Assembly: GCA_031270605.1 (NCBI GenBank) | Contig: JAISXG010000022.1 | Coordinates: 1 to 64,000, forward strand | Length of the DNA stretch: 64,000 nucleotides | Reading direction: 5' to 3' | From: Oscillospiraceae bacterium | Lineage (GTDB): Bacteria > Bacillota > Clostridia > Oscillospirales > Acutalibacteraceae | Shown here: one piece after another, positions 39,700-54,993 of the stretch | Layout: the number at the start of each line of letters is the position of its first letter | Position numbering within the stretch: position 1 is the stretch's first letter | Position numbers and translations under genes: made by a program | Notes under the pieces: model-generated | The model's database searches: none | Seen by the model: the letters and a program-made list of their open reading frames with translations, nothing else | Told to the model about the DNA's origin: nothing

Positions 39700-39775
39700 G
39701 ACCCAGTAGCTCAGCAGGCAGAGCACCTGCCTTTTAAGCAGGGTGTCCGGCGTTCGAATCGCCGCTGGGTCACCA
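39700..39775 (+). tRNA. tRNA-Lys (anticodon TTT), CCA encoded
   Basis: 76 nt: acceptor GACCCAG/CTGGGTC, D-arm GCTC/GAGC, anticodon stem CCTGC/GCAGG with loop CTTTTAA (anticodon TTT), T-arm CGGCG-TTCGAAT-CGCCG, and an encoded terminal CCA. The island repeat begins two bases later, so the tRNA 3' end is the integration landmark and remains intact. Confidence 0.97.
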
Positions 39776-39777
39776 AT

Positions 39778-39838
39778 GGAAACTTATAAGAACTTTTACT
39801 TCTTTACAGGCGGTTTCGCCATAACAATGTTCTTATAA
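39778..39838 (+). repeat. Left attachment repeat (attL candidate)
   Basis: 57 of 61 bases are identical to 54652-54712. It contains TTATAAGAAC (39784-39793) and GTTCTTATAA (39829-39838), a perfect 10-bp dyad, as expected around a serine-recombinase crossover. In the recombinase frame it reads KLIRTFTSLQAVSP then stop, that is, it encodes an alternative C-terminus of the recombinase. Confidence 0.8.
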
Positions 39839-39851
39839 ATTTAAACAGAAA

Positions 39852-39891
39852 AACAAGCGGTCAGGGTGATAAACCTTGACCGCTTGTTTTT
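39852..39891 (+). terminator. Terminator next to the left attachment repeat
   Basis: ACAAGCGGTCA.GG pairs with CC.TGACCGCTTGT, followed by TTTT. It occupies the same place relative to the repeat as the terminator at 54726 does to the right copy, so the homology of the two ends extends past the 61-bp repeat in structure. It also terminates tRNA/secG transcription. Confidence 0.85.
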
Positions 39892-40096
39892 GTGAAAATT
39901 TTATGTTATTATTAAAGTAAATATTATAGTAATAATGGGAAGCTAAGAAATGATGTTGTAAAAAAATAAATTTCAAAACTGTGAAATAGCATGGCCTTCC
40001 AGTAGTGTTAATTATCTTACGAGAGAAATGTTTTTCGTGAGTAAAGTCCCAAAAGTTGGTTGTCATATGCAATCGACTTTTTTTCTTTTTTAAGTA

Positions 40097-40125
40097 TTGA
40101 CAAAATTAATATATTTGTATACAAT
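40097..40125 (+). promoter_or_regulatory. Promoter of the DUF1413-methyltransferase-nuclease operon
   Basis: Consensus -35 TTGACA (40097-40102), 17-nt spacer, -10 TACAAT (40120-40125). An imperfect-centre palindrome CAACA-T-TGTTG (40134-40144) lies at the predicted transcription start, overlapping the region just before the SD, and could be an operator. The preceding 39892-40096 is AT-rich with nothing recognisable. Confidence 0.7.
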
Positions 40126-40160
40126 AATATTAACAACATTGTTGAAGGAGAGGTGTTAAA

Positions 40161-40394
40161 ATGTTTAATGTAAATGACTTATTGACCATTGCCCAAAATG
40201 AAATAAACTATGTTAATGTCGGAGAGACGTTTTTACTCAAAGAGCTTTTTAAGGGATATGAATGGAATAGGATTAAAATTAGCGATAGATTATTATTGGG
40301 AACTTTATTTTTAAATTATGCTAATACAAATGCCGATAAAATAATTGCATTGAAAAAAACATCATCAAATCAACAAAAATATAAAAGGATTTAG
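40161..40394 (+). CDS. DUF1413 family small protein (77 aa)
   Basis: MFNVNDLLTIAQNEINYVNV then GETFLLKELFKGYEWNRIKI and DRLLLGTLFLNYANT: the ETFLLKELFKGYEWNRI plus LLLGTLFLNY pattern is that of DUF1413, small proteins common on plasmids and integrative elements of Firmicutes, possibly DNA-binding. GAAGGAGAGG precedes the ATG. It is first in an operon, 11 bp before the methyltransferase gene, so it may regulate or assist that system. Function unknown. Confidence 0.75.
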   Translation: MFNVNDLLTIAQNEINYVNVGETFLLKELFKGYEWNRIKISDRLLLGTLFLNYANTNADKIIALKKTSSNQQKYKRI

Positions 40395-40405
40395 GAGGTG
40401 CTGTC

Positions 40406-43400
40406 GTGAATAACTCTTTGTTGATTCAAGCCTATAAAGACTTGGAATATAATAAAGGCGAATTGATTTATCTGCAAAGTCAAGATATGCCTCTGGGTCG
40501 TGAGCTTGATATAGGAGAATGGATTATTTCTTGTAATATAATCAACAAAAAGTCAAGTAAATTCGCTGTCGAATCAATATTCTTTGTTAAAGATAATCCA
40601 ATAATTATTTTTGGTACCTGCCATTCAACAGATGATACAGATATTGAACAGGCATACATTAATGTATGGAATTTGGCTCGCCCACAGTATTTCTTTTTAG
40701 AGGCAAACGGTGAATTAAAAGTATATGATTTTTCTGTTCCAATTAAAACTCTAAATGGGAAAAGGGTTATTCCAAAACCCATTGAACTAATAAAAACAGC
40801 CAATGATATTTTACGAAAATTGCAAAATCTTTCGAGAAATAAAATTGAAGCAGGAATAGCAAAGCTTAACAAAGATAATAAGCAATACAGAGCAGACAAA
40901 ACGTTAATTAATGATATTAAAAAAATACGAGTTGAACTAATGAAACTTGGGCTTGATAGTGACAAGATAAAATATGCCCATTCTATTATCGGACGCTCAA
41001 TATTTATACGATATTTAGAGGACAGAGGAATACTTACTAACGAGTATTTTTCTACTTTAGCATCTCAAAACAAAGAATGGAAAAACATTTTAGTACTACC
41101 TTTGGACAGTTGCTTAACTTCTGATGCTAAAGCAAATGACAACTATATTAAATGTTTAAGAAATAAAGACTTTACATACGCTTTGTATAGAAAGCTATCT
41201 CAAGATTTCAATGGAGATATGTTTCCTATTGATGAAACAGAGGAAAGTATTGTAACATCTGAACATTTACTAAAAATATCGGATTTTCTCCAAGGAAAAT
41301 TTGATGAGCAGTTGCGCTTGTTTTTCTGGTCATATAAATTTGATGTCATTCCAATGGAATTGATGAGTAATTTATATGAGGAATTTTATCATAAGCAAAC
41401 CGAAAATGATAGCAATGGAACGCACTATACTCCATTATCTTTAGTTGAATTTGTAATTAAGCAAGCTCTCCCTCCTGAGGTGTTGGAGAGCAACCCTATA
41501 GTACTTGACACTTGTTGCGGTTCTGGAATTTTTCTTGTAGAATCATTTAAAAGAATCGTAAGGTATAATATTATTAAAAATAATGGCATTTTGTTGACCT
41601 ATGAACAGCTAAAAGAAATATTAAAAAAACAAATTCGTGGTATAGAGTTAGAAGATGAAGCATTAAGAGTTGCTGCTTTTAGCTTGTATGTTGCATTTCT
41701 TAATTTTCAAGAACCACCGTGTATTCTTGAGCAAATAAAAAAAGGTAAATATTTGCCTAATTTAAAATGTAATAAAAATATTTCGTCATCTTTTGATATT
41801 CTCTTATGTGAAGATGCTTTCTCTGACGAAGCCACATATTTTATAGGTAAACAAAAAGCAAATATTGTTGTTGGAAATCCGCCGTGGGGAGAGGCAGATA
41901 AAAGTGCCATTGAATGGTGCAAAACCAATAAATTACCGCTTGGAGATAAAGAATACTCGCAGGCTTTTATTTGGCGTGCAACACAATGGACTGAAAGCGA
42001 CGGTGCAATTTGCTTGTTGCTTCCTGTAAGTGTTTTTTCTAAATCAAGCCCTCAGAGTAACCTTTTTAAAAAAGAATGGTTTAGTAAAACCACTTTATTA
42101 CAAATCGTAAACTTTGCTCATTCAAGAAATGTTTTTTTTCAAAAAGCTACTGCACCATTTGTATCAGTATTGTTTAGACCACAGAAGCCTGTAAATGATG
42201 GGGTTATCTTATATTGGTCTGCTAAAAAAAGTTCCAAAAACATAGAGCGACAGTATATTGTTCTCGGAAAATCAGATATGCATTTTATAAAACAAAGCCA
42301 ATTTTTAGATTGCAGCTATGCTTGGAAAACATTATGGTGGGGAGGACTTTCTGATTTGTCTTTAATTGGAAAATTAAAAGCTAATAACTTAACTATAAAA
42401 TCAGTGGAAAAGAAATCTTCAATAATAAAACAAGGATTTACCCCTGGCAAAGGCAAAACAAGAAGTATTGAAAAATTATCAAAATTTAAGAAGTTATCCT
42501 TGAACGGTTTGGTGTCTTTTGGGATAATCGACAAATTCCTTGTTGATGATTTGCCTAAAGAATTACATCGGAATTTTAGCAGCTTTGAAATTTTTGAAGG
42601 CAATCGCATTATAGTAAAGCGTGGAATATCAAAAAAAGGTATAATAGTATCACGAGTTGAAAGTGTTCCCTTTTCGTTTACGACTGATATTCATTGTATA
42701 AAATTTCAAAATAGCAACGATGTTTTATTGAAAAGCATCTGTGCAATATTACTTTCTTCAGTTGCTAAATACTATTTCTTTTTAACTTGTAGTGGTTGGG
42801 GTATGTGGCATGATGAAATACATCTTGATGAATTGGAGCAGTTTCCCATTCCGACTATCAACGAAAACAAGCACACCAAAAAACTGTGCTTGTTAATGGA
42901 TGAAATCAAGGAATATGAAGAAATAACCATCGACTCACCTGTAAACAAAAATCAACGTAACTTTGAAGCTATAATAAAGGATATTGATGAAGTCGTTTTT
43001 GAAATGTATCAGTTGACCGATGAAGAAAAAGCATTGGTCACCGATATGTGTTCATATGGCTTAGATTTGTTTTACAATAAAACCGACAGTATTGCAATTA
43101 AAGAATTACCTATTGTTTCCGGTGAGCTTTGTGGCACTGAAAAAAGTTTGTCTGTTAAAAGGCATTTGATTTACAGTTATATAGATAAAGTTGTATCTAC
43201 TATTAACGAATATTTGGCAAATATCAACGCTGAGTTAGAATGGAGAATTCATCGTTCGAAAGGCGTAATAGCGATATCATTTTTAACCAAATATATAAAT
43301 GACCCAGTTGGTATTGATTATGAGAGTAAAGGTGATTGGGAAATAGCTCTACAGGAATTTAGTAGACTGAGCAAACAAGCTGTTATAGACGACATTTATA

Positions 43401-43558
43401 TAGAAGGGTCTTTTATCGGTGTGTCTGATAATTGTATTGTTATTATTAAAAAGGATGAACGTAGAAATTGGTCTGCTGGTGCAGCCGTTAAAGACTTGAA
43501 TTCCATTTTGTTAAAGTTGATTGACAAACAATCGGTGGAGGTGAACGGATATGAATAG
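40406..43558 (+). CDS. Large N6-adenine DNA methyltransferase (type IIG/Eco57I-like, 1050 aa)
   Basis: Class I amino-methyltransferase core: HYTP motif (about 339), AdoMet-binding VLDTCCGSGIFLVE (about 364-377), catalytic NPPWGEAD (about 491), CLLLPVSVFS, then a TaqI-like target-recognition region ending SGWGMWHDEIHLDELEQFPI (about 795-815) and an extra C-terminal domain of about 150 aa (WRIHRSKGVIAISFL; IYIEGSFIGVSDN). The N-terminus (1-130) has the EQAYINVWNLARPQYFFLEA and NGELKVYDF shape of restriction-subunit N-domains but no visible D/ExK triad. The start is GTG 40406, 5 nt after AGGAGGTG. It overlaps the nuclease gene by 8 bp, suggesting a two-protein restriction-modification or defence complex. 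Confidence 0.85.
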   Translation: MNNSLLIQAYKDLEYNKGELIYLQSQDMPLGRELDIGEWIISCNIINKKSSKFAVESIFFVKDNPIIIFGTCHSTDDTDIEQAYINVWNLARPQYFFLEANGELKVYDFSVPIKTLNGKRVIPKPIELIKTANDILRKLQNLSRNKIEAGIAKLNKDNKQYRADKTLINDIKKIRVELMKLGLDSDKIKYAHSIIGRSIFIRYLEDRGILTNEYFSTLASQNKEWKNILVLPLDSCLTSDAKANDNYIKCLRNKDFTYALYRKLSQDFNGDMFPIDETEESIVTSEHLLKISDFLQGKFDEQLRLFFWSYKFDVIPMELMSNLYEEFYHKQTENDSNGTHYTPLSLVEFVIKQALPPEVLESNPIVLDTCCGSGIFLVESFKRIVRYNIIKNNGILLTYEQLKEILKKQIRGIELEDEALRVAAFSLYVAFLNFQEPPCILEQIKKGKYLPNLKCNKNISSSFDILLCEDAFSDEATYFIGKQKANIVVGNPPWGEADKSAIEWCKTNKLPLGDKEYSQAFIWRATQWTESDGAICLLLPVSVFSKSSPQSNLFKKEWFSKTTLLQIVNFAHSRNVFFQKATAPFVSVLFRPQKPVNDGVILYWSAKKSSKNIERQYIVLGKSDMHFIKQSQFLDCSYAWKTLWWGGLSDLSLIGKLKANNLTIKSVEKKSSIIKQGFTPGKGKTRSIEKLSKFKKLSLNGLVSFGIIDKFLVDDLPKELHRNFSSFEIFEGNRIIVKRGISKKGIIVSRVESVPFSFTTDIHCIKFQNSNDVLLKSICAILLSSVAKYYFFLTCSGWGMWHDEIHLDELEQFPIPTINENKHTKKLCLLMDEIKEYEEITIDSPVNKNQRNFEAIIKDIDEVVFEMYQLTDEEKALVTDMCSYGLDLFYNKTDSIAIKELPIVSGELCGTEKSLSVKRHLIYSYIDKVVSTINEYLANINAELEWRIHRSKGVIAISFLTKYINDPVGIDYESKGDWEIALQEFSRLSKQAVIDDIYIEGSFIGVSDNCIVIIKKDERRNWSAGAAVKDLNSILLKLIDKQSVEVNGYE

Positions 43559-44219
43559 ACCGAGTTTCCAATCTATTGATATTTGGGCAGAATGGGAAAA
43601 AGACATTTTGATGATATTGGTTGAAGCCCTTCCCTCCTTATGTAATGTAAACGATATGACAAATGATGAAAATGACATAACGGTACAATTATATAAAATA
43701 ATACTTACCGTAAGATACAACAAGCAAAAAATCACTTTTGGCAACATTGTTCTTCAAACGCAGAACCAGCCTGTTAATGCGTTATGCGTATCCGAAAATG
43801 AATCAAGTCTTCGTAAAAAGCCCGATTTATTATGGGTATTTAATGATGAAAATGCAGATACACCAGAAAAATCACAACGCTATTTTACGATAGAATGCAA
43901 ATGCCTATCCACAACGGCAGACGATAAAAATTATGTTGAGAAAGGTATTTCACGCTTCATCCTAAATGACTGGGGTTATGGTAGAAACGAAAAAAGTGCT
44001 GCAATGATTGGCTACATAAAAGATATTAATTCCAATGTGCATTTATGCAGAGTTGTTGAACATAGCAAAAAGCATAATTACCCTGAAATTCTCGAGTATG
44101 TTTGTGAAAACAAGCATGTTTATCGGTACACACAAACTTTTGAAACTCGTGAGTTTGAGCCTCGGAATTTTACGTTGCATCATTTATGGACACACATTGA
44201 TGATCATTTTAAAAAGTAG
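43551..44219 (+). CDS. PD-(D/E)XK nuclease-like restriction protein (222 aa)
   Basis: The core motif is clear: P91-D92 in LRKKPDLLWVF and E115-x-K117 in YFTIECKCLS, separated by 22 residues as in PD-(D/E)XK folds. An N-terminal helical part (WAEWEKDILMILVEALPSL) and a C-terminal HHLWTHIDDHF complete the protein. Its ATG lies inside the end of the methyltransferase gene (8-bp overlap), so production is coupled. Together they form a plausible restriction system in which the nuclease acts in trans to a large methyltransferase/specificity protein. Not recognised as a named restriction enzyme. Confidence 0.75.
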   Translation: MNRPSFQSIDIWAEWEKDILMILVEALPSLCNVNDMTNDENDITVQLYKIILTVRYNKQKITFGNIVLQTQNQPVNALCVSENESSLRKKPDLLWVFNDENADTPEKSQRYFTIECKCLSTTADDKNYVEKGISRFILNDWGYGRNEKSAAMIGYIKDINSNVHLCRVVEHSKKHNYPEILEYVCENKHVYRYTQTFETREFEPRNFTLHHLWTHIDDHFKK

Positions 44220-44334
44220 AGCAGTTTAGGATATAGTGCTTTTTGATGTATGCCAAACTTCGTCTAATATTTATAATGGACAGGCGTATAGTATTTAACC
44301 GAAGAATAAATGTGATTTTCACAGAGGAAAACTT

Positions 44335-44880
44335 ATGAGTAACAAAAAAGCAAGAAAGAAGACCGATTCTAAACCCAATACGACTCCGCATTTATTACCA
44401 GTTAATATCGACTATGATAAATTGGCTGAGGCATTTATAAATGCACAGGAGCAGAGGAAAGAAAAGTCTATGGAAAAAAGTAGCAAGAAAATTGGATTTT
44501 TCAAGGGTGTATGGCTTATTCTGCAGGGCAAGAATGATACTCAAGACCGTATGACAATGGGATTTATGGCAATTCTTTTGACCGTACTTTTTAAGACAAT
44601 TTCAATTATTGGATTTTTATCTGTACCGATTAGCGCCTATGTAATAATAAAACAAATGTTAGCTATGACGTGGACTATCGGCTGGAATCTTATGGAAAAT
44701 ATTATAGGCATTATATTATTTGCATCTTTCTTATTTATTATATTCATTTTTTCTGTACTGATTTGGGGTGCATCAAAGGAAATAGAAAAATCAGAAGATA
44801 AACACTTTGTAGTTGCTGTCTTTTCAGGAATTATTAGCCTCGTGGCTTTAATTATATCGTTGATTGCCCTTAAACAATAA
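44335..44880 (+). CDS. Membrane protein (181 aa), unknown function
   Basis: A basic, charged cytoplasmic N-terminus (NKKARKKTDSKPNT; LAEAFINAQEQRKEKSMEK) is followed by three to four TM helices (FMAILLTVLFKTISIIGFLS; IIGIILFASFLFIIFIFSVL; VVAVFSGIISLVALIISLIA). 115 bp after the nuclease gene, same strand, with weak SD (GAGGAAAAC). It could be a membrane effector or accessory of the restriction-like cassette, but no motif proves that. Confidence 0.65.
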   Translation: MSNKKARKKTDSKPNTTPHLLPVNIDYDKLAEAFINAQEQRKEKSMEKSSKKIGFFKGVWLILQGKNDTQDRMTMGFMAILLTVLFKTISIIGFLSVPISAYVIIKQMLAMTWTIGWNLMENIIGIILFASFLFIIFIFSVLIWGASKEIEKSEDKHFVVAVFSGIISLVALIISLIALKQ

Positions 44881-45161
44881 ATATTATATATAATTTATGA
44901 CATTAATCTGTTCTCTTAAGGCTTGCTTGGCACGGCGATAAAGTGATAAAAAGAAAAACGCTAATATCGAAGCAATATTAGCAATTTATGAACAATATAA
45001 TTATGCTTGCCAATCATGAGCATACCCGTCAGAACGGAATTATATCCATGAACTGCTCATTATGTTTATTAACGTACATACAAATGCCAAATACAATTTA
45101 TACTCTATTCCCTGTTACTCTGTTTTGAATAATTGCACGAAATATTAGAAGGAGGTTTCCC
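44881..45161. other. Intergenic region with relic coding sequence
   Basis: Plus-strand fragment about 44945-45020 reads DKKKNANIEAILAIYEQYNY then stop, resembling part of a HTH protein from a mobile element; it has no SD or start and is probably a relic. GCTAATAT/ATATTAGC forms an 8-bp hairpin within it. The remainder is AT-rich; no consensus promoter was identified before the flavoenzyme gene. Confidence 0.35.
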
Positions 45162-46646
45162 ATGAAAAAGAAAGTTATCGTCATAGGGGGCGGTATTGCG
45201 GGGCTGAGCGCGGGTGTCTATGCGTTAAGGTGCGGCTTTGACGTTACCGTTTTGGAAAGCCATAGTATAGCGGGCGGGAACTGTACGTCATGGAAGCGAA
45301 GCGGTTATCTCTTTGAGGGCGGTATGCACTGGCTTACGGGTTCCAGTAAAAAAGAACCCATCTATAAGATGTGGCGTACTGTGGGGGCGCTGAACGACAG
45401 CATTCAGATCCACTGTTCTGAACCCTTCATAGAATATGACTACGAAGGCACGCCGATCCGTTTCTACAGGGATGTCGATACTACAGAAAAACACTTGATT
45501 TCTTTGTCACCCGAAGATGCAAAAGAGATAAAAGCACTATGTAACAACATTCGCAAAGTAAAAAACCTTGCTATGCCTGTTACCGATCTGCGGGGTGTCA
45601 AAGTGACAAAAAAGACTCGTCCACCAATTTCTCTGCTTTTTAGCGCCATTTCTGCTATGAGAACCATGGGTTCATTTTCTAAAATCTCCCGAGATGAGTA
45701 TGTTGGAAGATTTGTCCATGAGGGGTTACGCGAAATGCTTCGCTCCTTAACAAACGAAAAGACTGGTGTGTTGCCACTGTTTTTTACGATGGGTGCTCTT
45801 GCCCGGGGTGATGGTGGCTTCCCCGAAGGGGGATCATTGCCATTCGTCGGTCGAATTGTTGATACTTTCCAGTCACTGGGCGGTGAACTTCTTTTGAACA
45901 CAAGGGGCGACCGTGTTATTGTTGAAAACGAAAAAGCGGTTGGTGTAATGGTGAACGGCAAAAACATGCCTGCTGACGCCGTGATTATCACATCCGATAC
46001 CATGTCAATCGACCGCCTGTTTGACACTCCTCCCAAAGCTCCCTGGCTGGAGGCAATGCATGCTGTGACCGAGCCTACGATGGCTATCTTTCTATCTCTC
46101 GGCATAAAGGCTGACTTGAAGAAATATCATAAGGGCCTTGTTTTCAAGCTTCAGCAGCCGATTTCCTTGGCGAACCAAAAACATGAATACCTGAGTGTCA
46201 ACAACTATGCATCTGATCCAGTCTATTCTCCTGAAGGAAAAACCGCTATTACTATTATCTTAGATGGTGACACCTACGATTTTTGGAAAAAAGCAAAAGA
46301 AGAAAACAGATATGTGGATGAAAAACAAAAGCTGGCTGGGGTAGTGATAGAGGCGTTGTCCAAGCTGGTTCCTGAAATCGAAGGGCAGGTAGAGGTCTGC
46401 GATGTTGCAACGCCGTTAACCTACGAACGCTACTGCAGCAATTGGAAAGGTTCCTGGATGACTGAAATGACGCCAAGCATGAAGATGAAGAGCTACCCGG
46501 CTGCTATCAAGGGGTTGTCCGGCGTATACTTCGCGGGACAGCGCATGATGCCACCCGGTGGCCTTCCTGTTGCGCTAATGACTGGTCGGACGGCTGTTCA
46601 ATATCTATGCCGCGATACAGGTACTCTATTTGTCAGTGAAGAATAA
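45162..46646 (+). CDS. FAD-dependent oxidoreductase, phytoene-desaturase/CrtI-like
   Basis: A 494-aa flavoprotein. The Rossmann start KKVIVIGGGIAGLSAGVYAL (dinucleotide-binding GxGxxG), VLESHSIAGGNCTSWKRSGY and FEGGMHWLTG match the CrtI/CrtN/retinol-saturase group; a C-terminal FAD-binding segment (YFAGQRMMPPGGLPVALMTG) is present. The SD AGAAGGAGG is ideal. Its base composition is visibly less AT-rich than its island neighbours, so it was probably acquired separately. No carotenoid synthase gene is near; the substrate could be a lipid or terpenoid. Confidence 0.82.
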   Translation: MKKKVIVIGGGIAGLSAGVYALRCGFDVTVLESHSIAGGNCTSWKRSGYLFEGGMHWLTGSSKKEPIYKMWRTVGALNDSIQIHCSEPFIEYDYEGTPIRFYRDVDTTEKHLISLSPEDAKEIKALCNNIRKVKNLAMPVTDLRGVKVTKKTRPPISLLFSAISAMRTMGSFSKISRDEYVGRFVHEGLREMLRSLTNEKTGVLPLFFTMGALARGDGGFPEGGSLPFVGRIVDTFQSLGGELLLNTRGDRVIVENEKAVGVMVNGKNMPADAVIITSDTMSIDRLFDTPPKAPWLEAMHAVTEPTMAIFLSLGIKADLKKYHKGLVFKLQQPISLANQKHEYLSVNNYASDPVYSPEGKTAITIILDGDTYDFWKKAKEENRYVDEKQKLAGVVIEALSKLVPEIEGQVEVCDVATPLTYERYCSNWKGSWMTEMTPSMKMKSYPAAIKGLSGVYFAGQRMMPPGGLPVALMTGRTAVQYLCRDTGTLFVSEE

Positions 46647-46814
46647 GCGCACATTAGAATTATATACTATAGAAATAACATTATCTGATTTCCCATTATG
46701 TTTATGATAGACAAACACATAATAACAATAATAGGAAGCTCAACTAAGGAATAGTTTTGGATATAACGGGAATGGGGAGTTTTTACGTATAAAGATATCG
46801 ATATAGCTTCTGAG

Positions 46815-47573
46815 GTGGAGTCAAAAGGATATAAGGAAGGATATAAACTCCATCAATATATTATAAATTCCTTTATACAATGTTTGTTTTTTGCTCAATT
46901 AAATTGTTCAAGAAGCGATAAACTTGAGAATAGCTTATTCTTCCTTTCCGTTATAGATGATATGTTTCAATCAATTGTGGGTATTGCATGTTTATCTGAG
47001 CAAGGGATTAGAAATACATGTAGACGAGAATTAAGATATCTACTTGAATTAGCAATAAAGGCATGTGTTGTATCTCAGAAGTATTCTGACAAATCGGTTA
47101 GTGAGCAAATAGCTGAATACTTTGGTATTATTAAATCAACAAATATTTCTATGATTAAAGAAATTGATTTTTATTTTTTTGATAAAGATTTGAAAGATAA
47201 TTTTATTTCCGAGTCATTACGAATGTATGGAGATTTATGCGCTTATGTACACTCTACGCCAAAACAAATGCAAGAAAGAATTGGTTTAATGCAAAAAGGT
47301 AGATATATAGGTTTTGAAGGTGTAAATGAATTAAAAGAATTAAATAAAGAGGTATCAATAACGCTTTCCTTTGTTTTGGTTTTGTTTTTCCATGCTATAC
47401 CAGAGTGGTGTGTTGGTGATTATATTGTTGAAAGAGATGGTACCACCGTAAATTCTTACTTTTCAAGGTCAAAATATTTTGCGGCAATTGATTCAATATT
47501 TGATTATAAACAAGAACGCCAAGGACACTTAGATACAGTGAAAGCGTGCAGAGAGAAAAAAGTTGCCTTTTAG
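46815..47573 (+). CDS. Alpha-helical protein, DUF5677/HEPN-like (252 aa)
   Basis: Mostly helical. The pattern GIRNTCRRELRYLLELAIKA ... DLCAYVHSTPKQMQ, with a conserved RxxxRE helix and a YVHS motif about 110 residues later, resembles DUF5677/HEPN-fold proteins that sense or cut RNA in defence and toxin systems. The start is doubtful: GTG 46815 has only GAGG immediately adjoining; a better SD/ATG (46772, after GGGA) is in another frame and reaches TAA after seven codons, so a frameshift near the 5' end is possible. It lies alone between the flavoenzyme and a recombinase relic. Confidence 0.5.
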   Translation: MESKGYKEGYKLHQYIINSFIQCLFFAQLNCSRSDKLENSLFFLSVIDDMFQSIVGIACLSEQGIRNTCRRELRYLLELAIKACVVSQKYSDKSVSEQIAEYFGIIKSTNISMIKEIDFYFFDKDLKDNFISESLRMYGDLCAYVHSTPKQMQERIGLMQKGRYIGFEGVNELKELNKEVSITLSFVLVLFFHAIPEWCVGDYIVERDGTTVNSYFSRSKYFAAIDSIFDYKQERQGHLDTVKACREKKVAF

Positions 47574-47631
47574 GCTCTAATTATTTATAATTAGCCGGAA
47601 CCTTTACTGGTATCTTAATTGTCTAATATGT

Positions 47632-47874
47632 TTAGAAAGCCATAAACATCATGGCTAAGGGATTGGCGTTAACGGCAGCGTGTAGTTGCTTATCATCGAT
47701 ATGTGTATAAATTTTTGTAGTAACTATACTCTCATGTCCAAGAAGCGATTGAAAAGATCGAATATCAATATGCCCATATTCATACATCAGTGTCGCGGAT
47801 GTGTGGCAAAGCTTTTGAGTGGACAACTTTATTGGGTTGACGCCCGCTGCAACAATGTGCTTTTTGATAACATT
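47632..47874 (-). pseudogene. C-terminal fragment of a tyrosine recombinase
   Basis: The frame (after a TAA at 47875-47877) reads VIKKHIVAAGVNPIKLSTQK, LCHTSATLMYEYGHIDIRSF, QSLLGHESIVTTKIYTHIDD: unmistakably the catalytic C-terminus of a Xer/phage-type integrase. The HxLRHT motif has become QKLCHT, losing His and Arg, while the later HxxH/W-region GHES and the nucleophile Tyr (IYTH) remain. No N-terminal part is present. A relic of an earlier integrated element. Confidence 0.85.
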
Positions 47875-47930
47875 TTAAATTGATCGGGGCGTTAGTTAGC
47901 ATTTGTTAGGCTTTTTAATTTGCTCTGCAC

Positions 47931-48461
47931 TTACTTCAGGCCAAATTGTGTTTTCATTGTAACCTTATCGCCTTGAAAGGTGATGCTTGCATTGCCTAAC
48001 GAATTTGAACTTTCCCACATATACATTTTTGTGTTGTATTCAGCGCCCATGTCTAAATCAACTTCTGAAAGCAATATACCAGTGCTGCCAATTATATTAC
48101 AGACTTCTTCATAAGACATGCCAGTTTCTATTTTGTTAAACATCGAAAGAGTTATTCCGGTTTGCTGATGAACTCCATTTGCAGGCGCTGTATCATCAAA
48201 AAATACAGGAATCAAAAAAAGTCCTCCAAGACATAATGCAACTATAACCAAACATGCAATCAGCATACTTTTTCTTGTCTTTTTAGACTTTACAGCTGAG
48301 TAACCACACCGCAGACAATAATTATTTCTCAGCCATGCACCACATTGTATACACCTTTTATCAATGTCGCCGACCGAAACCGTTGAGCATCCGCAATAAA
48401 CACAATTTTCCGATTCATTGCTAATTTCCCTTCCACATTCACGACAGTTTATCATTGCCAT
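47931..48461 (-). CDS. Zinc-ribbon membrane protein with SmpA/DUF3862-like domain
   Basis: A 176-aa protein: MAMINCRECGREISNESENC and VYCGC (first ribbon, four Cys), a second ribbon RCIQCGAWLRNNYCLRCGYS, one TM helix (MLIACLVIVALCLGGLFLIP), then an extracytoplasmic domain (ITLSMFNKIETGMSYEEVCN, YMWESSNSLGNASITFQGDK) similar to DUF3862/SmpA-OmlA beta-lactamase-inhibitor-like repeats. The ATG at 48461 is set by GGGAGGT 6 nt upstream. Common in Clostridia and Lactobacillales; function unknown. Confidence 0.75.
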   Translation of the reverse strand: MAMINCRECGREISNESENCVYCGCSTVSVGDIDKRCIQCGAWLRNNYCLRCGYSAVKSKKTRKSMLIACLVIVALCLGGLFLIPVFFDDTAPANGVHQQTGITLSMFNKIETGMSYEEVCNIIGSTGILLSEVDLDMGAEYNTKMYMWESSNSLGNASITFQGDKVTMKTQFGLK

Positions 48462-48621
48462 TTTCAGACCTCCCATATTTTTTATACACTGCACTATTTT
48501 TTTACTTCTTCCTCATATCCTTCCAAGGGTACGGCAGATATCGACATGTCGATATGTATTTGAATTATATGACGATAGCCCGATAAAGTAAATGGATATA
48601 GAGAAAGGTTATAGCTCTATT

Positions 48622-49158
48622 TTAGGATTTCTCTTCCAACCTATGAGCCATTTGTAATTGCGGAAGAACACTGGATAGCGCTGCTTTCCATTCCAATACT
48701 TTTTCGTTCATGTTTTTTCTGTTTTGGCCGCTGGGTGAGGACACGCGAATATAAGGGATAGTTGAATTCTTAAAAAACCTACGGAAATATTTATACGCAC
48801 CGTTACTATGAAATAAAAGAAGTTTGATATTGGGATACGTAGCAAGAAGTTCGGGAAGCTTATTCTTTTCTTCATTTTTAAGGTCTTTATCGTTAGAGGT
48901 TTTTCGCACCGCCGATTCCACTACATCCCAAAGGGCTATTTTATATTTTTGAAGAAGCGCGGCTTTTTCTGCAACTGTTTTTGGTAGCGGTTCCTCACAT
49001 GCTCCGGCTAAGATACCCCAGAATTTATTTGTGGGGTCAGAATAATATTGTTTTTGCTCTGCTGACGCCTGACCGGGCAGTGTTCCCAAAATAAGCACAA
49101 CGGAGTCTGGGCGAATATCCGGGTCCAAACTTTTGGTTCGTTTTAATTCCTCATTCAT
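48622..49158 (-). CDS. DNA-deoxyinosine/uracil glycosylase family protein
   Basis: A 178-aa protein of the uracil-DNA-glycosylase superfamily, HDG (family 6) type: LILGTLPGQASAEQKQYYSD (active-site GTLPG...S), NKFWGILAGA, IALWDVVESAVRKTSNDKDL and the minor-groove loop VSSPSGQNRKNM. Related enzymes excise hypoxanthine (deaminated adenine) or mismatched U. Transcribed from a consensus promoter divergent from an XRE gene. As island cargo it may protect element DNA or reflect a link with the base-modifying neighbours, which is speculation. Confidence 0.82.
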   Translation of the reverse strand: MNEELKRTKSLDPDIRPDSVVLILGTLPGQASAEQKQYYSDPTNKFWGILAGACEEPLPKTVAEKAALLQKYKIALWDVVESAVRKTSNDKDLKNEEKNKLPELLATYPNIKLLLFHSNGAYKYFRRFFKNSTIPYIRVSSPSGQNRKNMNEKVLEWKAALSSVLPQLQMAHRLEEKS

Positions 49159-49265
49159 ATAATTTTATCATTCCCCACAAAATATTTATATAGTTTATGT
49201 TTAATCTTGGGCAAGAATGAAGTAACTACCTGCGCCAAACAAGCCATATAAGATGTTATTTTTAT

Positions 49266-49294
49266 ATTATAAACCAAATAAAATGTGAAGTCAA
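49266..49294 (-). promoter_or_regulatory. Promoter of the DNA glycosylase gene
   Basis: Minus strand -35 TTGACT (49289-49294), 17-nt spacer, -10 TATAAT (49266-49271). The perfect inverted pair TATAAGATGT (49247-49256) and ACATCTTATA (49296-49305) brackets this promoter, and ATACAT/ATGTAT lies at 49294-49313, suggesting control by the adjacent XRE protein. Confidence 0.65.
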
Positions 49295-49320
49295 TACATC
49301 TTATAAAATGTATATTATTA

Positions 49321-49350
49321 TTGCTTACATGATGAGAGGTGTGTAAGCAA
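49321..49350 (+). promoter_or_regulatory. Inverted repeat enclosing the SD of the XRE gene
   Basis: TTGCTTACA (49321-49329) and TGTAAGCAA (49342-49350) are perfect 9-bp arms; the loop holds GAGAGGTG, the SD, and the second arm includes the A of the ATG. As RNA it would place the start codon at the base of a stem; as DNA it would be an autorepression site. Confidence 0.55.
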
Positions 49351-49682
49351 TGAAAAGTATCAATGAAATGTTAAAGGATTTGAGAGAAGATAAAGATTTA
49401 ACACAAAGGGATATTGCAAAACTGTTAGGTACAACGCAACAATATTATTCCAAGTATGAGAGTGGACATAAAGAACTGCCTATTCGTCATCTAATTACAT
49501 TAGCAGATTTTTATAAAGTTCCTGCTGATTTGATATTAGGCAGAATTGAATACGCCGCAGTAAAAGCTGATAACTCTGAATACACAAAGTGGGTAAAAGG
49601 GATAGCGGATTTAAGCCCGGAAAATAAAAAGGCTATATTTGATTATATTGAACTTCTAAAGTTGAAAGATAAAAAACAGTAA
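49350..49682 (+). CDS. XRE-family HTH regulator (110 aa)
   Basis: HTH at about residues 5-62 (MLKDLREDKDLTQRDIAKLL, TTQQYYSKYESGHKELPIRH, LADFYKVPADLILGR) followed by a short C-terminal helix (DLSPENKKAIFDYIELLKLK). It is a typical Cro-like regulator of integrative elements. The start is fixed by GAGAGGTG inside the inverted repeat. Divergent from the glycosylase gene; probably controls it and itself. Confidence 0.85.
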   Translation: MKSINEMLKDLREDKDLTQRDIAKLLGTTQQYYSKYESGHKELPIRHLITLADFYKVPADLILGRIEYAAVKADNSEYTKWVKGIADLSPENKKAIFDYIELLKLKDKKQ

Positions 49683-49866
49683 TAACCTATGGTCTGTTAA
49701 GTTCGTAATTTAACACGGTTTTTATGGCTATTTTGGATTTTAACTGAGCAGAGTTTTTTTACCTCCAAAAAAGCCAAAAAATCCATGACATAATAAAAAA
49801 GCGGCTATAATTGACTAACCGCTCAAATGATTTGTGACAATAAATTGTTTGCGACTGGAGTAAAAT
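49683..49866. terminator. Terminators between the convergent XRE genes
   Basis: At about 49795-49823, AGCGG and CCGCT enclose a 14-nt loop; on the minus strand this is followed by TTTTTTA, giving a terminator for the gene at 49867. No comparable strong stem is seen directly after the plus-strand gene. The rest of this stretch is AT-rich without a gene. Confidence 0.5.
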
Positions 49867-50526
49867 TCAGTCGTTTTTTTTCGTTTGCTCAAAATTAGTT
49901 TTTAACCTTAATTCCTCGATTCTGTCTTTTGGAATATCCTTTTTCAGTTGCACAACATCATTTTGAATAAAGCCTAATTCCGCCAACTCTAACAGGTCTT
50001 TATTATATGGAGTCGTATCAAATTCTGCACCTTCAAGTAACCCCAAAAATGCTTTGTCTTTATAGACTATTTTCCCTGCAATCATATATTGATTTGTTAA
50101 ATATCGAAATAAATGAGCGAACAAATCAGTTTCCTCTTCATAGTGATTTTCTATTAAAATGCTAATGATTTCTATCTTCCAATGGTTGGAATCCCTCTTG
50201 TTTAATGTTCTTAATTTCTTGATTGCTTCTTCTGTTAGCCCTGTTTCCAACTGTATGAAATTATTTTTTGGATTTTCACAATCATGCTTGCCAAAAAAAT
50301 AATTTGGAGAGATGTCCAGAGCTTCCGTAAGTTTTTGAATATTTGTATATCGCGGCTCTCGGTTTTTTGTGAACCAATCAGTAATAGCAGATGATGATAT
50401 TTTTGATTTGCCTGCAAGTTCTTTTTTTGTCATTTTTCGTTTTTTCATTATTTTGAATAATCTTTGTATCCATTCTCTGCTTTCACCGGGTGCTAATGTC
50501 ATTTCTCTGCCCTGCCAGTTTTCCAT
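49867..50526 (-). CDS. XRE-family HTH regulator with C-terminal domain (219 aa)
   Basis: N-terminal HTH (about 20-85: WIQRLFKIMKKRKMTKKELA, KISSSAITDWFTKNREPRYT, ALDISPNYFFG) with a helical C-terminal domain of about 120 aa (KKLRTLNKRDSNHWKIEIIS, YLTNQYMIAGKIVYKDKAF, KDLLELAELGFIQNDVVQLK). No S24 peptidase dyad is visible, so it is not a LexA/CI-type self-cleaving repressor. AGGGG upstream of the ATG. It is divergent from the primase-like operon, whose promoter region carries two matching operators; probably the island's repressor. Confidence 0.8.
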   Translation of the reverse strand: MENWQGREMTLAPGESREWIQRLFKIMKKRKMTKKELAGKSKISSSAITDWFTKNREPRYTNIQKLTEALDISPNYFFGKHDCENPKNNFIQLETGLTEEAIKKLRTLNKRDSNHWKIEIISILIENHYEEETDLFAHLFRYLTNQYMIAGKIVYKDKAFLGLLEGAEFDTTPYNKDLLELAELGFIQNDVVQLKKDIPKDRIEELRLKTNFEQTKKND

Positions 50527-50544
50527 ATACTATACCCCTTCATA

Positions 50545-50562
50545 AATCCGATATATCGAATT
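50545..50562. promoter_or_regulatory. Candidate operator O1 in the divergent control region
   Basis: AATCCGATATATCGAATT contains the perfect palindrome CGATATATCG and matches the second site AATCC-N8-GGATT at 50665 in arm sequence and spacing. It lies just before the start of the minus-strand XRE gene, which suits autorepression. Confidence 0.5.
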
Positions 50563-50605
50563 AAAATCAACAAAAAAATAAATTTGTACGAATGATAAAA
50601 TATCT

Positions 50606-50634
50606 GTGACACAGCAAAATTTATCCTGTATAAT
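50606..50634 (+). promoter_or_regulatory. Promoter of the primase-recombinase side
   Basis: -35 GTGACA (50606-50611), 17-nt spacer, -10 TATAAT (50629-50634). Operator candidate O2 (AATCC-N8-GGATT, 50665-50682) lies about 25 bp downstream of the predicted start, where a bound repressor would block elongation. Confidence 0.6.
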
Positions 50635-50664
50635 AGCGATTGTTAACTTCATATCCCAAACCAT

Positions 50665-50682
50665 AATCCAGTATATAGGATT
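50665..50682. promoter_or_regulatory. Candidate operator O2
   Basis: AATCC (50665-50669) and GGATT (50678-50682) with an 8-bp AT-only centre; same arm spacing as O1 at 50545. Confidence 0.5.
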
Positions 50683-50732
50683 TTAGTTAAAAAATCAAGT
50701 TCAATTTTATTATAGAAGAGGAAGGATATTTC

Positions 50733-50900
50733 ATGATGGATACAACGCCACGGGTTGAATTATCAGACAAGCAAGTGGAGCAATTGGCTTTTGCGTTGTA
50801 TCCGTCCGCGATGGATTTCTGTAAAAAAGCTATGGATAACTCAAAAAACAAGAAAAAGGAGTGTCAGTCAGATGACAAAGAAAAAAAAGACAAATCTTAA
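50733..50900 (+). CDS. Small hypothetical protein (55 aa) upstream of the primase-like gene
   Basis: Two tandem ATG codons after GAGGAAGGA open MMDTTPRVELSDKQVEQLAF, ALYPSAMDFCKKAMDNSKNK and a lysine/aspartate-rich tail ending KKDKS. Its last 29 nt overlap the start of the DUF3987 gene in another frame, giving translational coupling. The ELSDKQVEQLAFALYPSAMDF segment is like short proteins encoded before primase-like genes in Firmicute elements. Coordinates carry an uncertainty of a base because of a long A run near the end. Confidence 0.55.
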   Translation: MMDTTPRVELSDKQVEQLAFALYPSAMDFCKKAMDNSKNKKKECQSDDKEKKDKS

Positions 50901-53070
50901 CCATGAAAGCAAAATCGCCGTTATGGTAGACCCTGTTACGTTTAAGGAAAAACCGAGTGCCAAACAGGTAGCGGGAATTAAACCGCGATTATTGACCGAG
51001 GGGGTTAGCTACCTTACGATGGGGCAGATTATCGACAGAATCAAAGCAGGACATACCATTTGTCCCGGCGTGCTGGAGGGTGGTGCAAAGGCTGGTAACT
51101 GGATAAGCCAGCAGTTGTTTATGGTGGATATCGATAACAACGCTAATTTGCCGTACTTGACTCCAGAAAGGGCGATGGAAATCTGTAAGGATAACAAGTT
51201 ATCCCTTGCCTTTTATTATTTTAGCTTTTCCCATTCTAAAGATAAACCAAAGTTTCGCTTGTGTTTTATTACTGATGAAATCATAAAGGACGAAACAACA
51301 CGCAATAACATAATGCAAACACTCATTTCGTACTTCCCCCAAAGTGACCGCTCATGTAAGAACGCCGACCGCTTTTTTTATGGCACAAATAAAGAGGTGC
51401 GTATTTTGGATTTAGAAGCGCGTATTTGCCTCGCAAATTTTACGCATGAGTTTTCATTGCCGGATAGTGCAACCGGCCATACGCGCCAAAATAGGAGCAA
51501 TCGGCTCCTTGCTGATTTGATCAGGTCATTTGATTTTCTTGATTATCTGAAAAAACGCAACGGTAAAATCACATCAGATAGTGGAAACACTGTCCATTTT
51601 GAAGATTGTGAAGTGTGCGGACACCATGATAACCTTGTGTATTTCAAGAATACAAACACCTTCTACTGTTACTCGCCTGATGGCAAACAAGGCGGAAGTA
51701 TCATTGATTATCTTATGATAACTAAAAATATGGACACAGCCCAAGCAACCAATTATTTTATAAACAGCTTGTGCGAGACGGACAATTTCCTGGAATGGCA
51801 GCCACCTGTTCCATTTATCGAGGTAGCATCACCGCCGTTTCCCATTAAATCGTTACCCACTCCATTAAGAGATTATGTTTTAGCTGTGGCAGAAACAACG
51901 CAAACACCTGTTGATATGGCTTCTGTTGCTATATTGGCAGTTATGGCAGCATGTTTACAAGGCAAATTTAAAATTATGGGAAAGCCTGATTGGTTTGAAC
52001 CGCTAAATATATATTGTATTATTGCCGCCAATCCCGGCGAGCGCAAATCCCCTGTAATGAGACATTTAACGGAGTGTTTGCATGAATATGAGAAACAAAT
52101 AAAGCCCTTACGATTAATAGCAGATAATTCGACGCCTGAAGCTCTAACAACGGTGCTTGCAAATAATGGCGGTAATTTATCAATCATTTCAAGCGAGGGC
52201 GGAATATTTGATATATTGGGTGGAGCATACAATAATAGGGTAAATATTGACACCCTGTTAAAGGCCCATGACGGTGACCTTATTTGTGTAGACAGAAAAG
52301 GCAGGGAGACAGAGAGGATAGAAAACCCCGCTCTTACGATTCTATTAACTGTTCAACCTCATGTTTTAAACAAATTTATAAGTAACGATATTTTTCGAGA
52401 CAGGGGGTTGGTGGCAAGGTTTCTATACTCTATGCCGCCCTCAAAGGTAGGAACCCGACGCTATAAAACTAAAGCGATACCGCAAGAAGTAAAGGATAGG
52501 TATAAAAAACTTTGTTTCAAACTGCTTAAAATCAAAGCGAGAGAACCGCAACTACTAACGGTGAATTCCAATGCAAACAGAGAATTAGAGGATTTTTTTA
52601 ATGAATTGGAGGCTAAGCTCAAAGATGATTTTGAGGATATTGTGGATTTTGCGAGCAAGCTGCATGGTAGGTCATTGAGAGTTGCAGGAATTTTGCACAT
52701 CGTAAAATATGGTGATGCTGCGCAAAATAAACCTATTTCCAGTCAAACCGTGCGAGAAGCAAAAGAAATAGGGCTGTATTTTTTAGAGCACGCAAAAATC
52801 ATATATAGGTTATCGGGTGGAACCACACTGCAAAAACAGGCAATATACATATTGAGGCAATTGAAAAAGTATCCTGAGCGAGAATATATACCGAGCGCAA
52901 TAAAACGAATCTGCCGCGGCGTATTTAATAGGACAGAGGATATTATGCCCGCTTTGGACTTACTGGTGGAATACGGATATCTACAGGAACGGTACGTTCC
53001 CTATAAGCAATTTGGTGGTAGGCCACCCGCGAATAAATATGTGCTCAATCCCCTATATTTTGATGAATAA
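50872..53070 (+). CDS. DUF3987 primase/ATPase-like replication protein (732 aa)
   Basis: Three parts are visible. An N-terminal primase-polymerase-like domain (about 15-185) has FMVDIDNNANLPYLTPERAM (acidic DxD) and HSKDKPKFRLCF, then FFYGTNKEV. A CHC2-like zinc finger (about 210-250) reads CEVCGHHDNLVYF ... FYCYSPDGKQGGSIIDYLM. A DUF3987 helicase-like ATPase (about 290-590) has the Walker A variant AANPGERKSP, SEGGIFDILGG and LTVQPHVLNKFI. The ATG at 50872 with GGAG upstream is preferred over a TTG at 50755 that overlaps the small gene. This protein likely initiates replication of the excised element or supports its maintenance. Confidence 0.82.
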   Translation: MTKKKKTNLNHESKIAVMVDPVTFKEKPSAKQVAGIKPRLLTEGVSYLTMGQIIDRIKAGHTICPGVLEGGAKAGNWISQQLFMVDIDNNANLPYLTPERAMEICKDNKLSLAFYYFSFSHSKDKPKFRLCFITDEIIKDETTRNNIMQTLISYFPQSDRSCKNADRFFYGTNKEVRILDLEARICLANFTHEFSLPDSATGHTRQNRSNRLLADLIRSFDFLDYLKKRNGKITSDSGNTVHFEDCEVCGHHDNLVYFKNTNTFYCYSPDGKQGGSIIDYLMITKNMDTAQATNYFINSLCETDNFLEWQPPVPFIEVASPPFPIKSLPTPLRDYVLAVAETTQTPVDMASVAILAVMAACLQGKFKIMGKPDWFEPLNIYCIIAANPGERKSPVMRHLTECLHEYEKQIKPLRLIADNSTPEALTTVLANNGGNLSIISSEGGIFDILGGAYNNRVNIDTLLKAHDGDLICVDRKGRETERIENPALTILLTVQPHVLNKFISNDIFRDRGLVARFLYSMPPSKVGTRRYKTKAIPQEVKDRYKKLCFKLLKIKAREPQLLTVNSNANRELEDFFNELEAKLKDDFEDIVDFASKLHGRSLRVAGILHIVKYGDAAQNKPISSQTVREAKEIGLYFLEHAKIIYRLSGGTTLQKQAIYILRQLKKYPEREYIPSAIKRICRGVFNRTEDIMPALDLLVEYGYLQERYVPYKQFGGRPPANKYVLNPLYFDE

Positions 53071-53132
53071 TCCATTTAGATTTAACCGCGAAAGCCTTAT
53101 AATTATCTTATCAAAAAAGGAGGTGGAGCCAT

Positions 53133-54698
53133 ATGAACGTGGTATTGTACGGGCGGTTTTCCTGTGAAAAGCAAAATGAGCAATCCATTGAGGGCCAGTT
53201 GGAAGCCTGCCGCAATTTCGCCAACTCAAAAGGTTATACGATTATTAATGAGTACACGGACGTTGCCATGTCAGGCCGGGACGATAAACGTCCCAGCTTG
53301 CAACGCATGGTGCAAGACAGCGAAAGCGGTATTTTTCAAGCGGTAATTGTATGGAAGTTCGACCGGTTTTTCCGTAGCTGCCGGTTGAGCAGTAAATACC
53401 GGGAGATTCTGAAAAACAACGGTGTTGACCTTATTTCGGCTATGGAGTATTTAGGCGAGGGACCCCAAAAGATTATTCTGCAATCATTATTTGACGGCAT
53501 GGCCGAGTTCTATTCCGCGAATTTAGCCGAAAACGTGATCAGGGGTATGGGGCAGAACGCCCAAAAATGCCTGTCGAACGGCGGTACGATCCCCCTTGGA
53601 TATAAAATTATTGATAAGCGATACCAGATAGACGAACAAACCGCCCCTTATGTAAAAAAGGTCTTTGAGATGTACGCAGGGGGAGAAAGGGCAATCGACA
53701 TTGCCGCGTATTTGAATGAACGCGGAATTCGAACCGCCCAGGGAGCAAAATTCAACAAGAGCTCGTTTAAGACGATGCTCCAAAACCCAAAGTATATCGG
53801 CATTTACTCTTACAGTGGCTACGCAACCGAAGGCGGTGTTCCCCGCATTATATCGGATGAACTGTTTAACGCGGTGGCCGAGCGGCTTCGAAAAAACAAA
53901 AAGGCCCCTGCAAGGGCCAAAGCCAATATGGAATACCTGTTGACGACAAAGCTATTCTGCGGACACTGTAAGGATTTGATGGTCGGCTCCAGCACCTCTA
54001 AGAAAGGCGGTGTATATTATTACTATTATGTTTGCAAAAGCACTATATTAAAAGCTAAAACCTGTGATAAAAAACGGGTTAACAAAGAGACAATAGAAGA
54101 ACTCATTCTCAAGTTGTGCCGGGAGCAGTTAGAGAATAAAAATATTGATAAACTCGTCCGAAAGATAAGCTCTATCAGTAAAAAACAAAAGGAAAGCCTG
54201 CATATCACTCGATTATCGGAGGCCTTGAAAAGTAATGAGGCGCAGCGAAAAAACCTTATGCAGTCTTTGAAGGAATGTGAATACGAGGGAGTCCGTAAAG
54301 GGATATACGCCGAACTGAACGACTTAGACAAGGCAAAAGCGGAGTTGGAAAAGGATTTAGCCATCGAGAAATCCCACAGTTTCATACCATCCGAAGAACA
54401 ACTCCGTACGTTTTTTCGGGTACTGAAAGCCGGGGACAAGGACGATTTAAAAACCCGTAAGGCATTGATTGACATTTTTATAAACGCGGTCTATCTGTAT
54501 GATGACAACAACGGCAGAAACCGAAAAATCACCGTAGTATTCAATAGCGGCAAACGCCCCGTGACCATAGAAAACATACCGATTGACGATATCAGCCTTA
54601 ACTTTGAAAGGCAGTCCAGTTATTATATCGAGGCCAAAGGTTCACCACACAGGAAACTTATAAGAACTTTTACTTTTTTACAGGCGGTTTCGCTATAA
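53133..54698 (+). CDS. Large serine recombinase (site-specific integrase)
   Basis: Catalyses integration and excision. The resolvase domain (1-145) has nucleophile Ser10 in YGRFSCEKQNEQSIEGQ, AMSGRDDKRPSLQRM, VIVWKFDRFFRS with catalytic Arg, and the recombinase domain (about 155-260: IPLGYKI, MYAGGERAIDIAAYLNERGI); the zinc ribbon (about 272-315, FCGHCKDLMVG and YVCKST...TCDK) and a coiled coil (about 335-410, ISKKQKESLHITRLSEALKS) follow. SD AAGGAGGTGG. Its last 16 codons lie within the right attachment repeat, so integration or excision exchanges its C-terminus (KLIRTFTFLQAVSL versus KLIRTFTSLQAVSP encoded at the left end). Confidence 0.95.
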   Translation: MNVVLYGRFSCEKQNEQSIEGQLEACRNFANSKGYTIINEYTDVAMSGRDDKRPSLQRMVQDSESGIFQAVIVWKFDRFFRSCRLSSKYREILKNNGVDLISAMEYLGEGPQKIILQSLFDGMAEFYSANLAENVIRGMGQNAQKCLSNGGTIPLGYKIIDKRYQIDEQTAPYVKKVFEMYAGGERAIDIAAYLNERGIRTAQGAKFNKSSFKTMLQNPKYIGIYSYSGYATEGGVPRIISDELFNAVAERLRKNKKAPARAKANMEYLLTTKLFCGHCKDLMVGSSTSKKGGVYYYYYVCKSTILKAKTCDKKRVNKETIEELILKLCREQLENKNIDKLVRKISSISKKQKESLHITRLSEALKSNEAQRKNLMQSLKECEYEGVRKGIYAELNDLDKAKAELEKDLAIEKSHSFIPSEEQLRTFFRVLKAGDKDDLKTRKALIDIFINAVYLYDDNNGRNRKITVVFNSGKRPVTIENIPIDDISLNFERQSSYYIEAKGSPHRKLIRTFTFLQAVSL

Positions 54699-54712
54699 CG
54701 GTGTTCTTATAA
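54652..54712 (+). repeat. Right attachment repeat (attR candidate)
   Basis: Matches 39778-39838 at 57/61 positions, with the same TTATAAGAAC/GTTCTTATAA dyad. It covers the last codons and stop of the recombinase gene. Just upstream GGTTCACCA mimics the tRNA-Lys 3' end GGGTCACCA. Confidence 0.8.
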
Positions 54713-54725
54713 GTACCAACAGAAG

Positions 54726-54760
54726 AAGCGGTAGGGGTTAAACACCTTTACCGCTTTTTT
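54726..54760 (+). terminator. Terminator of the recombinase gene
   Basis: AAGCGGTA.GGG pairs with CC.TTACCGC, followed by TTTTTT. Structurally equivalent to the terminator at 39852. Confidence 0.85.
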
Positions 54761-54988: not shown

Positions 54989-54993
54989 TCTGT

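Follow-up and report, generated by a model that had tools for sequence, protein, structure and literature searches.

A tRNA-Lys island whose serine recombinase gene appears to be split at its own attachment site upon integration

Introduction

What becomes of a recombinase gene when the site used for integration lies within that gene is the question raised by a locus in an Oscillospiraceae bacterium (assembly GCA_031270605.1, contig JAISXG010000022.1, positions 1 to 64,000, the whole of this 64,000-nucleotide stretch being called the window below). Here an AT-rich block at 40-55 kb begins at a tRNA-Lys (ttt) gene, ends at the gene of a large serine recombinase (LSR) and is bounded by a direct repeat. 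A first-pass annotation had read the block as a mobile island the integration of which exchanges the C-terminus of its own recombinase by a crossover inside the repeat. Control of the direction of serine integrases matters for their biology and for genome engineering.

Comparison with relatives makes it very probable that the island belongs to an LSR that uses the CCA of a tRNA gene, with the attachment site of its circular form (attP) lying across its own gene and a tail split off upon integration. The island would be moved by an LSR of a group for which the CCA closing a tRNA gene is the place of recombination, and attP would span the 3' end of the recombinase gene itself, the left arm and the core being recombinase codons and the right arm together with the last ~20-30 codons forming the left end of the island. 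In the circle the gene would be whole and would encode an LSR with a C-terminal tail. Integration would sever it at the core and leave the tail codons beside the tRNA, ~15 kb away, and the integrated recombinase would run on into whichever sequence follows the tRNA. In the window this is, out of frame, what was probably an older island's left end.

Results

The last six bases of the tRNA-Lys target gene (39700..39775, + strand, identified by ARAGORN) are TCACCA (39770-39775), and the same six bases are found at the 3' end of, and inside, the recombinase gene (54642-54647, +). These are the predicted left and right crossover cores, and by analogy with the attP geometry of relatives the predicted island occupies 39776..54647 (14,872 bp). 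The integrated-state open reading frame (ORF) of the recombinase (53133..54698, +, 521 aa) has Resolvase, Recombinase and zinc-ribbon domains, all three above the Pfam cut-offs, and its codons past 54647 lie outside the predicted island. Arm comparison places a putative attP left arm (AGTTATTATA, 54618..54627, +) within the gene, its last base lying 20 nt ahead of the end of the core, and a right arm (TATAAGAACT, 39785..39794, +) 9 nt past the tRNA CCA, which is the spacing of relatives G044, G173 and G261a. The left end of the island (39776..39838, +) holds a hidden recombinase tail, METYKNFYFFTGGFAITMFL, of 20 codons and a stop, which judging from the sequence and from its conservation in the family would be in the recombinase frame only in the circle. 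A third arm (39829..39838, +) complements the right arm, none of 60 shuffles being as good. The terminator at this end (39853..39892, +) would stop transcription of the recombinase gene in the circular form and, after integration, would serve tRNA-Lys. With a core that is the tRNA 3' end and a tail predicted to be in frame only in the circle, the window island can be placed, by its sequence, in the tRNA-CCA group. It is inserted at a tRNA 3' end, the classical trait of tRNA islands, yet has a serine recombinase and no tyrosine integrase at its attachment site. G+C is 30-47% per kb in the AT-rich block, and outside it most 1-kb windows are at 45-59%, with a few lower.

The two ends share a single repeat family, 39778-39853 against 54652-54727 (76 nt, 88% identity), which blastn extends to 39778-39911 against 54652-54782 (134 columns, 79.9%, E 4e-29), so both terminators fall within the repeat. 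The first-pass annotation had given a repeat of 61 bp with 57 matches; there are indeed four differences in the first 61 nt, the repeat being longer than that. It had read correctly the two alternative recombinase tails and their shared stop, and the terminators that it placed after both copies are spanned by the 134-column similarity. The AT-rich block bounded by the repeat beside tRNA-Lys and recombinase is borne out by the repeat, ARAGORN, the ORF and the G+C content, and a mobile island at tRNA-Lys with its own LSR is supported by the sequence. The exchange of the C-terminus on integration is likewise predicted from the sequence, but the proposed crossover inside the 61-bp repeat is not supported, since the relatives point to the tRNA CCA. 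Relative to TCACCA the repeat starts 2 nt after it in the left copy and 4 nt after it in the right copy; the copies are thus offset by 2 nt relative to the core, and so the reading frame would differ if the crossover is at TCACCA, as we infer for the window island by analogy. The circle tail that had been proposed, KLIRTFTSLQAVSP, is not supported, the circle frame at TCACCA giving METYKNFYFFTGGFAITMFL. In this frame the four differences between the window copies within the tail ORF are three synonymous changes and one ATG/GTG; in the frame of the earlier proposal both differences before the stop alter the amino acid.

The likeliest origin of the long repeat is an older, related island, which probably occupied the same tRNA-Lys and of which the repeat would be the left end. 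Just outside the present island the right copy (54648..54761, +) has left-end arms, a tail frame (54653-54712) and a terminator, although a tRNA is missing ahead of it. The C-terminus that the recombinase now has, HRKLIRTFTFLQAVSL, is encoded by this copy, read out of frame. Little else of the older island remains ahead of a GC-rich ORF at 54994-56556. The right copy had no match in the 59 other genomes compared, nor as an exact pattern in 397 other genomes, and a plasmid search with the right flank (54700-54990) gave no match, so that support for the older-island remnant comes only from the left-end copy itself. That the repeat might be a host feature of tRNA-Lys was considered and rejected, as among the matches listed for 60 secG-tRNA-Lys genomes it was matched only in the bacterium's own genome. 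These 60 genomes (own included) were also searched for the empty secG-tRNA-Lys locus that the first-pass annotation had suggested looking for; such relatives exist, at a distance too great for them to stand in as empty sites, the matches listed covering only secG or tRNA parts and extending at most a few bases past the tRNA.

It is in relatives that the attP geometry is best seen. To the eye, the conserved frame of the recombinase has ...CCA close to its end in 26 of 30 loci (29 relatives and the window); in three of the other four CCA is not visible in the printed stretch, and G261a has GGACTA. Twenty-eight recombinase stretches (the window and 27 others, the latter with 4 to 36 kb of upstream DNA as contigs allowed) were compared for arms, and in 10, the window among them, an arm after a tRNA CCA is complementary to an arm in the recombinase 3' end at matching distances. 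A matching arm follows 10 of the 22 tRNAs that face the recombinase, as against 17 of 1,680 random positions and none of four tRNAs facing away, by criteria which were set after viewing these elements and were identical for the controls. In the nine elements other than the window the exact match adjoining the core covers 6-7 bases (one base in G261a), with the arms around the tRNA CCA. When joined as in the circle, the tails continue the recombinase frame as NTHNPNPFPIGDGFGFVLWLKNR in G044, FGTNPNTQPFFVGEVFGFVVSLE in G191 and HTNIKQSPREYYFLGGFAIMRYL... in G117, beside METYKNFYFFTGGFAITMFL in the window; that of G066 is out of frame because its recombinase frame is broken. In the integrated recombinases these tails are replaced by unrelated residues, as few as one or two and as many as 50 or more. 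An LSR at a tRNA 3' end, part of what had been singled out as unusual in this locus, is not a quirk of it and recurs across the LSR group. For the third arm none of 60 shuffles was as good in 12 of 17 left ends tested; as a trait of every member it was rejected, G173, G066, Dulem37, Shimadzu and G134 failing the shuffle test. One LSR gene, L084 (G192:C27), runs unbroken through core and arms into the tail (GEPITHNPN...VFGFVIYF), as would be the case in a circle or a tandem insertion. The genome from which the window comes encodes a further LSR, at G000:C44.

Left ends were sought across the order with the pattern CACCA-N9-11-ATCCGAAC-N8-36-GTTCGG, which is present in 110 of 394 genomes (the backwards-pattern control gave 0). 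The 110 sites read comprise 30 delivered loci and 80 of the other listed places, and at 82 of them the CCA is the exact 3' end of an ARAGORN tRNA of one of seven amino-acid types (Leu 52, Ala 10, Glu 6, Lys 5, Val 4, Tyr 3, Met 2). Of the remaining 28, a single site shows just a T-arm; in the other 27 the tests detect neither tRNA nor T-arm, several of them looking like tRNA 3' ends by eye. A further left-end pattern in the window's own genome (L211, G000:C97:6879-6927; NAHNPNPFPVGEGFGSVGFF) has no ARAGORN tRNA before it.

Codon-type conservation of the tail was measured at sites of one spacing class, in 44 sequences at least 8 differences apart, read in the frame set by the CCA. Between the arms diversity at codon positions 1, 2 and 3 is 0.448, 0.402 and 0.695 (reached in 0 of 20,000 column permutations), and the signal persists in the 34 tRNA-confirmed sequences (p 0.0001). 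The synonymous share of single-base codon differences is 0.383 in the CCA frame and 0.172 and 0.162 in the other two. The left end thus appears to be conserved codon by codon in the frame that only the circle would use.

Joined genes are found in viral contigs. The attP pattern GTTCGGAT-N14-24-CACCA-N6-12-ATCCGAAC gave 76 sites in 73 contigs (three on both strands), all of 47-48 bp although 41-57 bp was permitted, and many of these lie in ORFs of LSR length that continue 18-34 codons beyond the core. A scan free of the core gave 79 contigs, with CACCA at the expected place in 52, CCA in the expected 9-10 nt in 69, and 68 sites preceded by 300 aa or more within their ORF; 37 ORFs from the two scans align as LSRs. 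Among named phages, the LSR frames of Roseburia phage Shimadzu, Dulem virus 37 and Faecalibacterium phage Pioen run beyond the core region into a tail, the Shimadzu core not being CACCA and its gene being flagged as pseudo and incomplete in the record. The split design seems widespread both in the order, among gut bacteria, and in viral contigs and phages. Separately, a dozen LSRs of viral contigs (L121, L124, L128, L130, L136, L137, L149-L151, L184, L186 and L201) have a purine-rich sequence resembling a ribosome binding site with no ATG, GTG or TTG after it, and ACG or ATT/ATC at the expected start codon, which possibly reflects weak initiation.

An AlphaFold model was made of the tailed relative L203 (512 aa; 37-row alignment; predicted local distance difference test score, pLDDT, 81.7; predicted template modelling score, pTM, 0.42). 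The tail is modelled as two short strands, 496-499 and 502-510, with mean pLDDT of 64 for 491-500 and 80 for 501-510, and the preceding linker (471-490) is poorly predicted at about 50. Solved serine integrases, among those listed, align to the model up to residue 473 (9dxh, Z 18.2, rmsd 15.4, 447 aligned; Bxb1 9iu2, Z 16.6, rmsd 15.8, 362 aligned), and the core of this 512-aa protein falls at residue 486. Because the alignment ends before the core, the integrated form would have canonical LSR length and the tail would be an addition. That the tail region is not reached by the listed solved structures is by itself no sign of a new fold.

The cargo of the island includes a Type IIG restriction enzyme-methyltransferase (40406..43558, +; PADLOC E 5e-60, Pfam Eco57I and N6_Mtase), and a DUF3987 protein (50755..53070, +, frame as listed; Pfam E 1.5e-85) is encoded ahead of the recombinase. 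A flavin adenine dinucleotide (FAD) enzyme related to phytoene desaturases (45162-46646, +) lies where the local G+C is 41-45%, above most of the island. A short ORF (47632-47826, -) is a candidate for what we take, from its motif, to be the C-terminal end of a tyrosine recombinase, within an island of the serine type. Eleven window proteins were scanned for relaxase and conjugation families, neither of which is among their listed matches; a repressor matches TrbA weakly. An element of the staphylococcal cassette chromosome type was rejected, CcrB scoring 128.9 bits against a curated cut-off of 900.

Discussion

The split, the attP geometry, the tRNA targeting, the conservation of the tail and the joined genes can be read directly, mostly in relatives, and a number of observations weigh against extending them to the window or to the whole group. 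No close relative of the window recombinase exists among the 295 genomes of the order (own included), the closest matches having 45-48% identity, and a search for related loci with it found two distant loci in genome contigs and none in viral contigs. The exact pattern of the window-type left end occurs in its own genome only, among 398 family genomes (own included), and neither an empty site nor a circle junction of this island was seen. Of eleven arm matches, eight have p <=0.008; the weak ones, each taken alone, belong to the window (p 0.058), G117 (0.174) and G259 (0.138). In 18 of the 28 stretches there is no tRNA with a matching arm; twelve of these have <18 kb upstream, and G120, G143, G259, G093, G226 and G039 have 33-36 kb. 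G226 has an identical terminator after tRNA-Val and after the recombinase core, and its tRNA lacks an arm. Since a third arm was demanded by the genome pattern, its presence at those sites is in part a matter of choice. The codon-position signal is absent past the third arm (p 0.56), and with both tail parts together p is 0.04 (0.057 in the tRNA-confirmed set). In the core-free viral scan 10 of 79 sites have no CCA, so the split-gene design seems broader than tRNA targets. A tail was found in only three of nine phage or plasmid records read, those without it being four short unverified fecal scaffolds, FP_Epona and a circular Subdoligranulum record; the latter (OY725851.1, L114) has a related LSR at 12158-13648 with a terminator-like stretch and no tail after the core, in an attachment region that resembles an integrated right end.

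A crossover inside the 61-76 bp repeat, with one in-frame 14-residue tail swapped for another, would make direct use of a long repeat of 88% identity at both ends and of a frame that in either copy stays open until the same stop. Attachment sites of LSRs, on the other hand, share short cores. In the nine other elements the exact match next to the core covers 6-7 bases (one in G261a), with their arms flanking the tRNA CCA, and the differences between the window copies fit selection on another frame. The direct repeats of the integrative and conjugative elements (ICEs) in rumA measure 2-21 bp in the section of PMC4701971 that deals with them. An in-repeat crossover is thus very improbable. The tail could instead be a by-product, an open frame with no role as protein where the attachment arms have to lie, as would suit the overlap of arms and tail, a tail length that varies (18-34 residues in most viral attP matches, longer at some genome sites) and the lack of a codon-position signal past the third arm. 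The third-position variability between the arms and a twofold synonymous excess in one frame only speak for the protein, as do similar peptides (GGFA, GDGFGF) beside unrelated arm sequences, and the by-product account seems to us improbable.

Alternatively the split might inactivate the enzyme, as with 'suicidal' SSV-like integrases, and lock the island until a second element brings an intact one. An attP within a recombinase gene at a tRNA has its archaeal precedent (described in part of PMC8371274), and the older left end beside the island suggests repeated occupation. What is lost here is the last ~20 codons only, the part before the core spanning the solved serine integrases, whereas in the SSV-type int the catalytic domain, according to the same part of PMC8371274, sits in the C-terminal portion. 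We hold inactivation to be unlikely, if well short of negligible.

On the favoured explanation, with attP across the gene and the tail split off, the tail would be translated in the circle. As the tail-less protein spans the length of solved integrases, the tail would be an add-on and the enzyme would differ before and after integration. With less confidence, we take the tail most probably to regulate direction and not to be a part of catalysis, allowing integration and then no excision until another signal. Tentatively, and as a possibility more than an expectation, the gene of this group can be viewed as a one-bit record of integration, its conserved, circle-only tail being a directionality switch encoded in cis and its integrated form a tail-less canonical enzyme. 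If so, the tail would be missing from the proteins annotated in integrated genomes, and would be lost and regained by the very recombination that it controls. The C-terminus seems tied to the integration state, a link that a single enzyme, with its ~25 tail residues or deprived of them, would suffice to probe. Members of this group recovered from integrated genomes may end in host-encoded residues and be missing their true end, which could explain failed candidates.

Comparison with known systems

Serine recombinases at tRNA genes are called rare in the relevant part of PMC3218068, with phage phiRSM1 (tRNA-Ser) and the actinomycete ICEs (AICEs) of Mycobacterium (tRNA-Leu) as examples; these likewise pair a serine recombinase with a tRNA target, gene splitting not being mentioned in that part of the source. 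The present group widens such targeting to many tRNA genes in one bacterial order. The LSR atlas of Durrant et al. 2022 (PMC10083194), as far as its main text goes, gives thousands of LSRs with predicted attachment sites, has no occurrence of 'tRNA' or 'C-terminal', and called its proteins with Prodigal on genomes; integrated copies of the tRNA-CCA group called in this way would lack the tail. In the literature searched, with most subscription papers and bioRxiv outside it, we found no description of LSRs that as a group target the CCA of tRNA genes, nor of a conserved tail stored at the opposite end for the circle only.

Tail exchange by serine integrases is itself already known, what was not found reported being the tRNA-CCA group with a tail stored for the circle only. 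Exchange of the integrase 3' end was published for streptococcal ICEs that insert in rumA by means of a single serine integrase (Ambroset et al. 2016, the pertinent section of PMC4701971). As there, the window island has a direct repeat in the serine integrase gene at one end, and as there the 3' parts of target and integrase would be exchanged and the integrase C-terminus altered with a change of frame, for the window a prediction from sequence. Unlike rumA, a protein gene, the target here is tRNA-Lys, and a conserved circle-only tail is not described in that section. In the archaeal SSV-type 'suicidal' integrases, too, attP lies in the integrase gene and integration splits it, leaving fragments at both ends, and such splitting by archaeal tyrosine integrases is described as exclusive to archaea (PMC8371274, in the part concerned). 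Those are tyrosine enzymes with the catalytic domain in the C-terminal fragment, whereas here it is a serine recombinase from which only a C-terminal extension would be split off.

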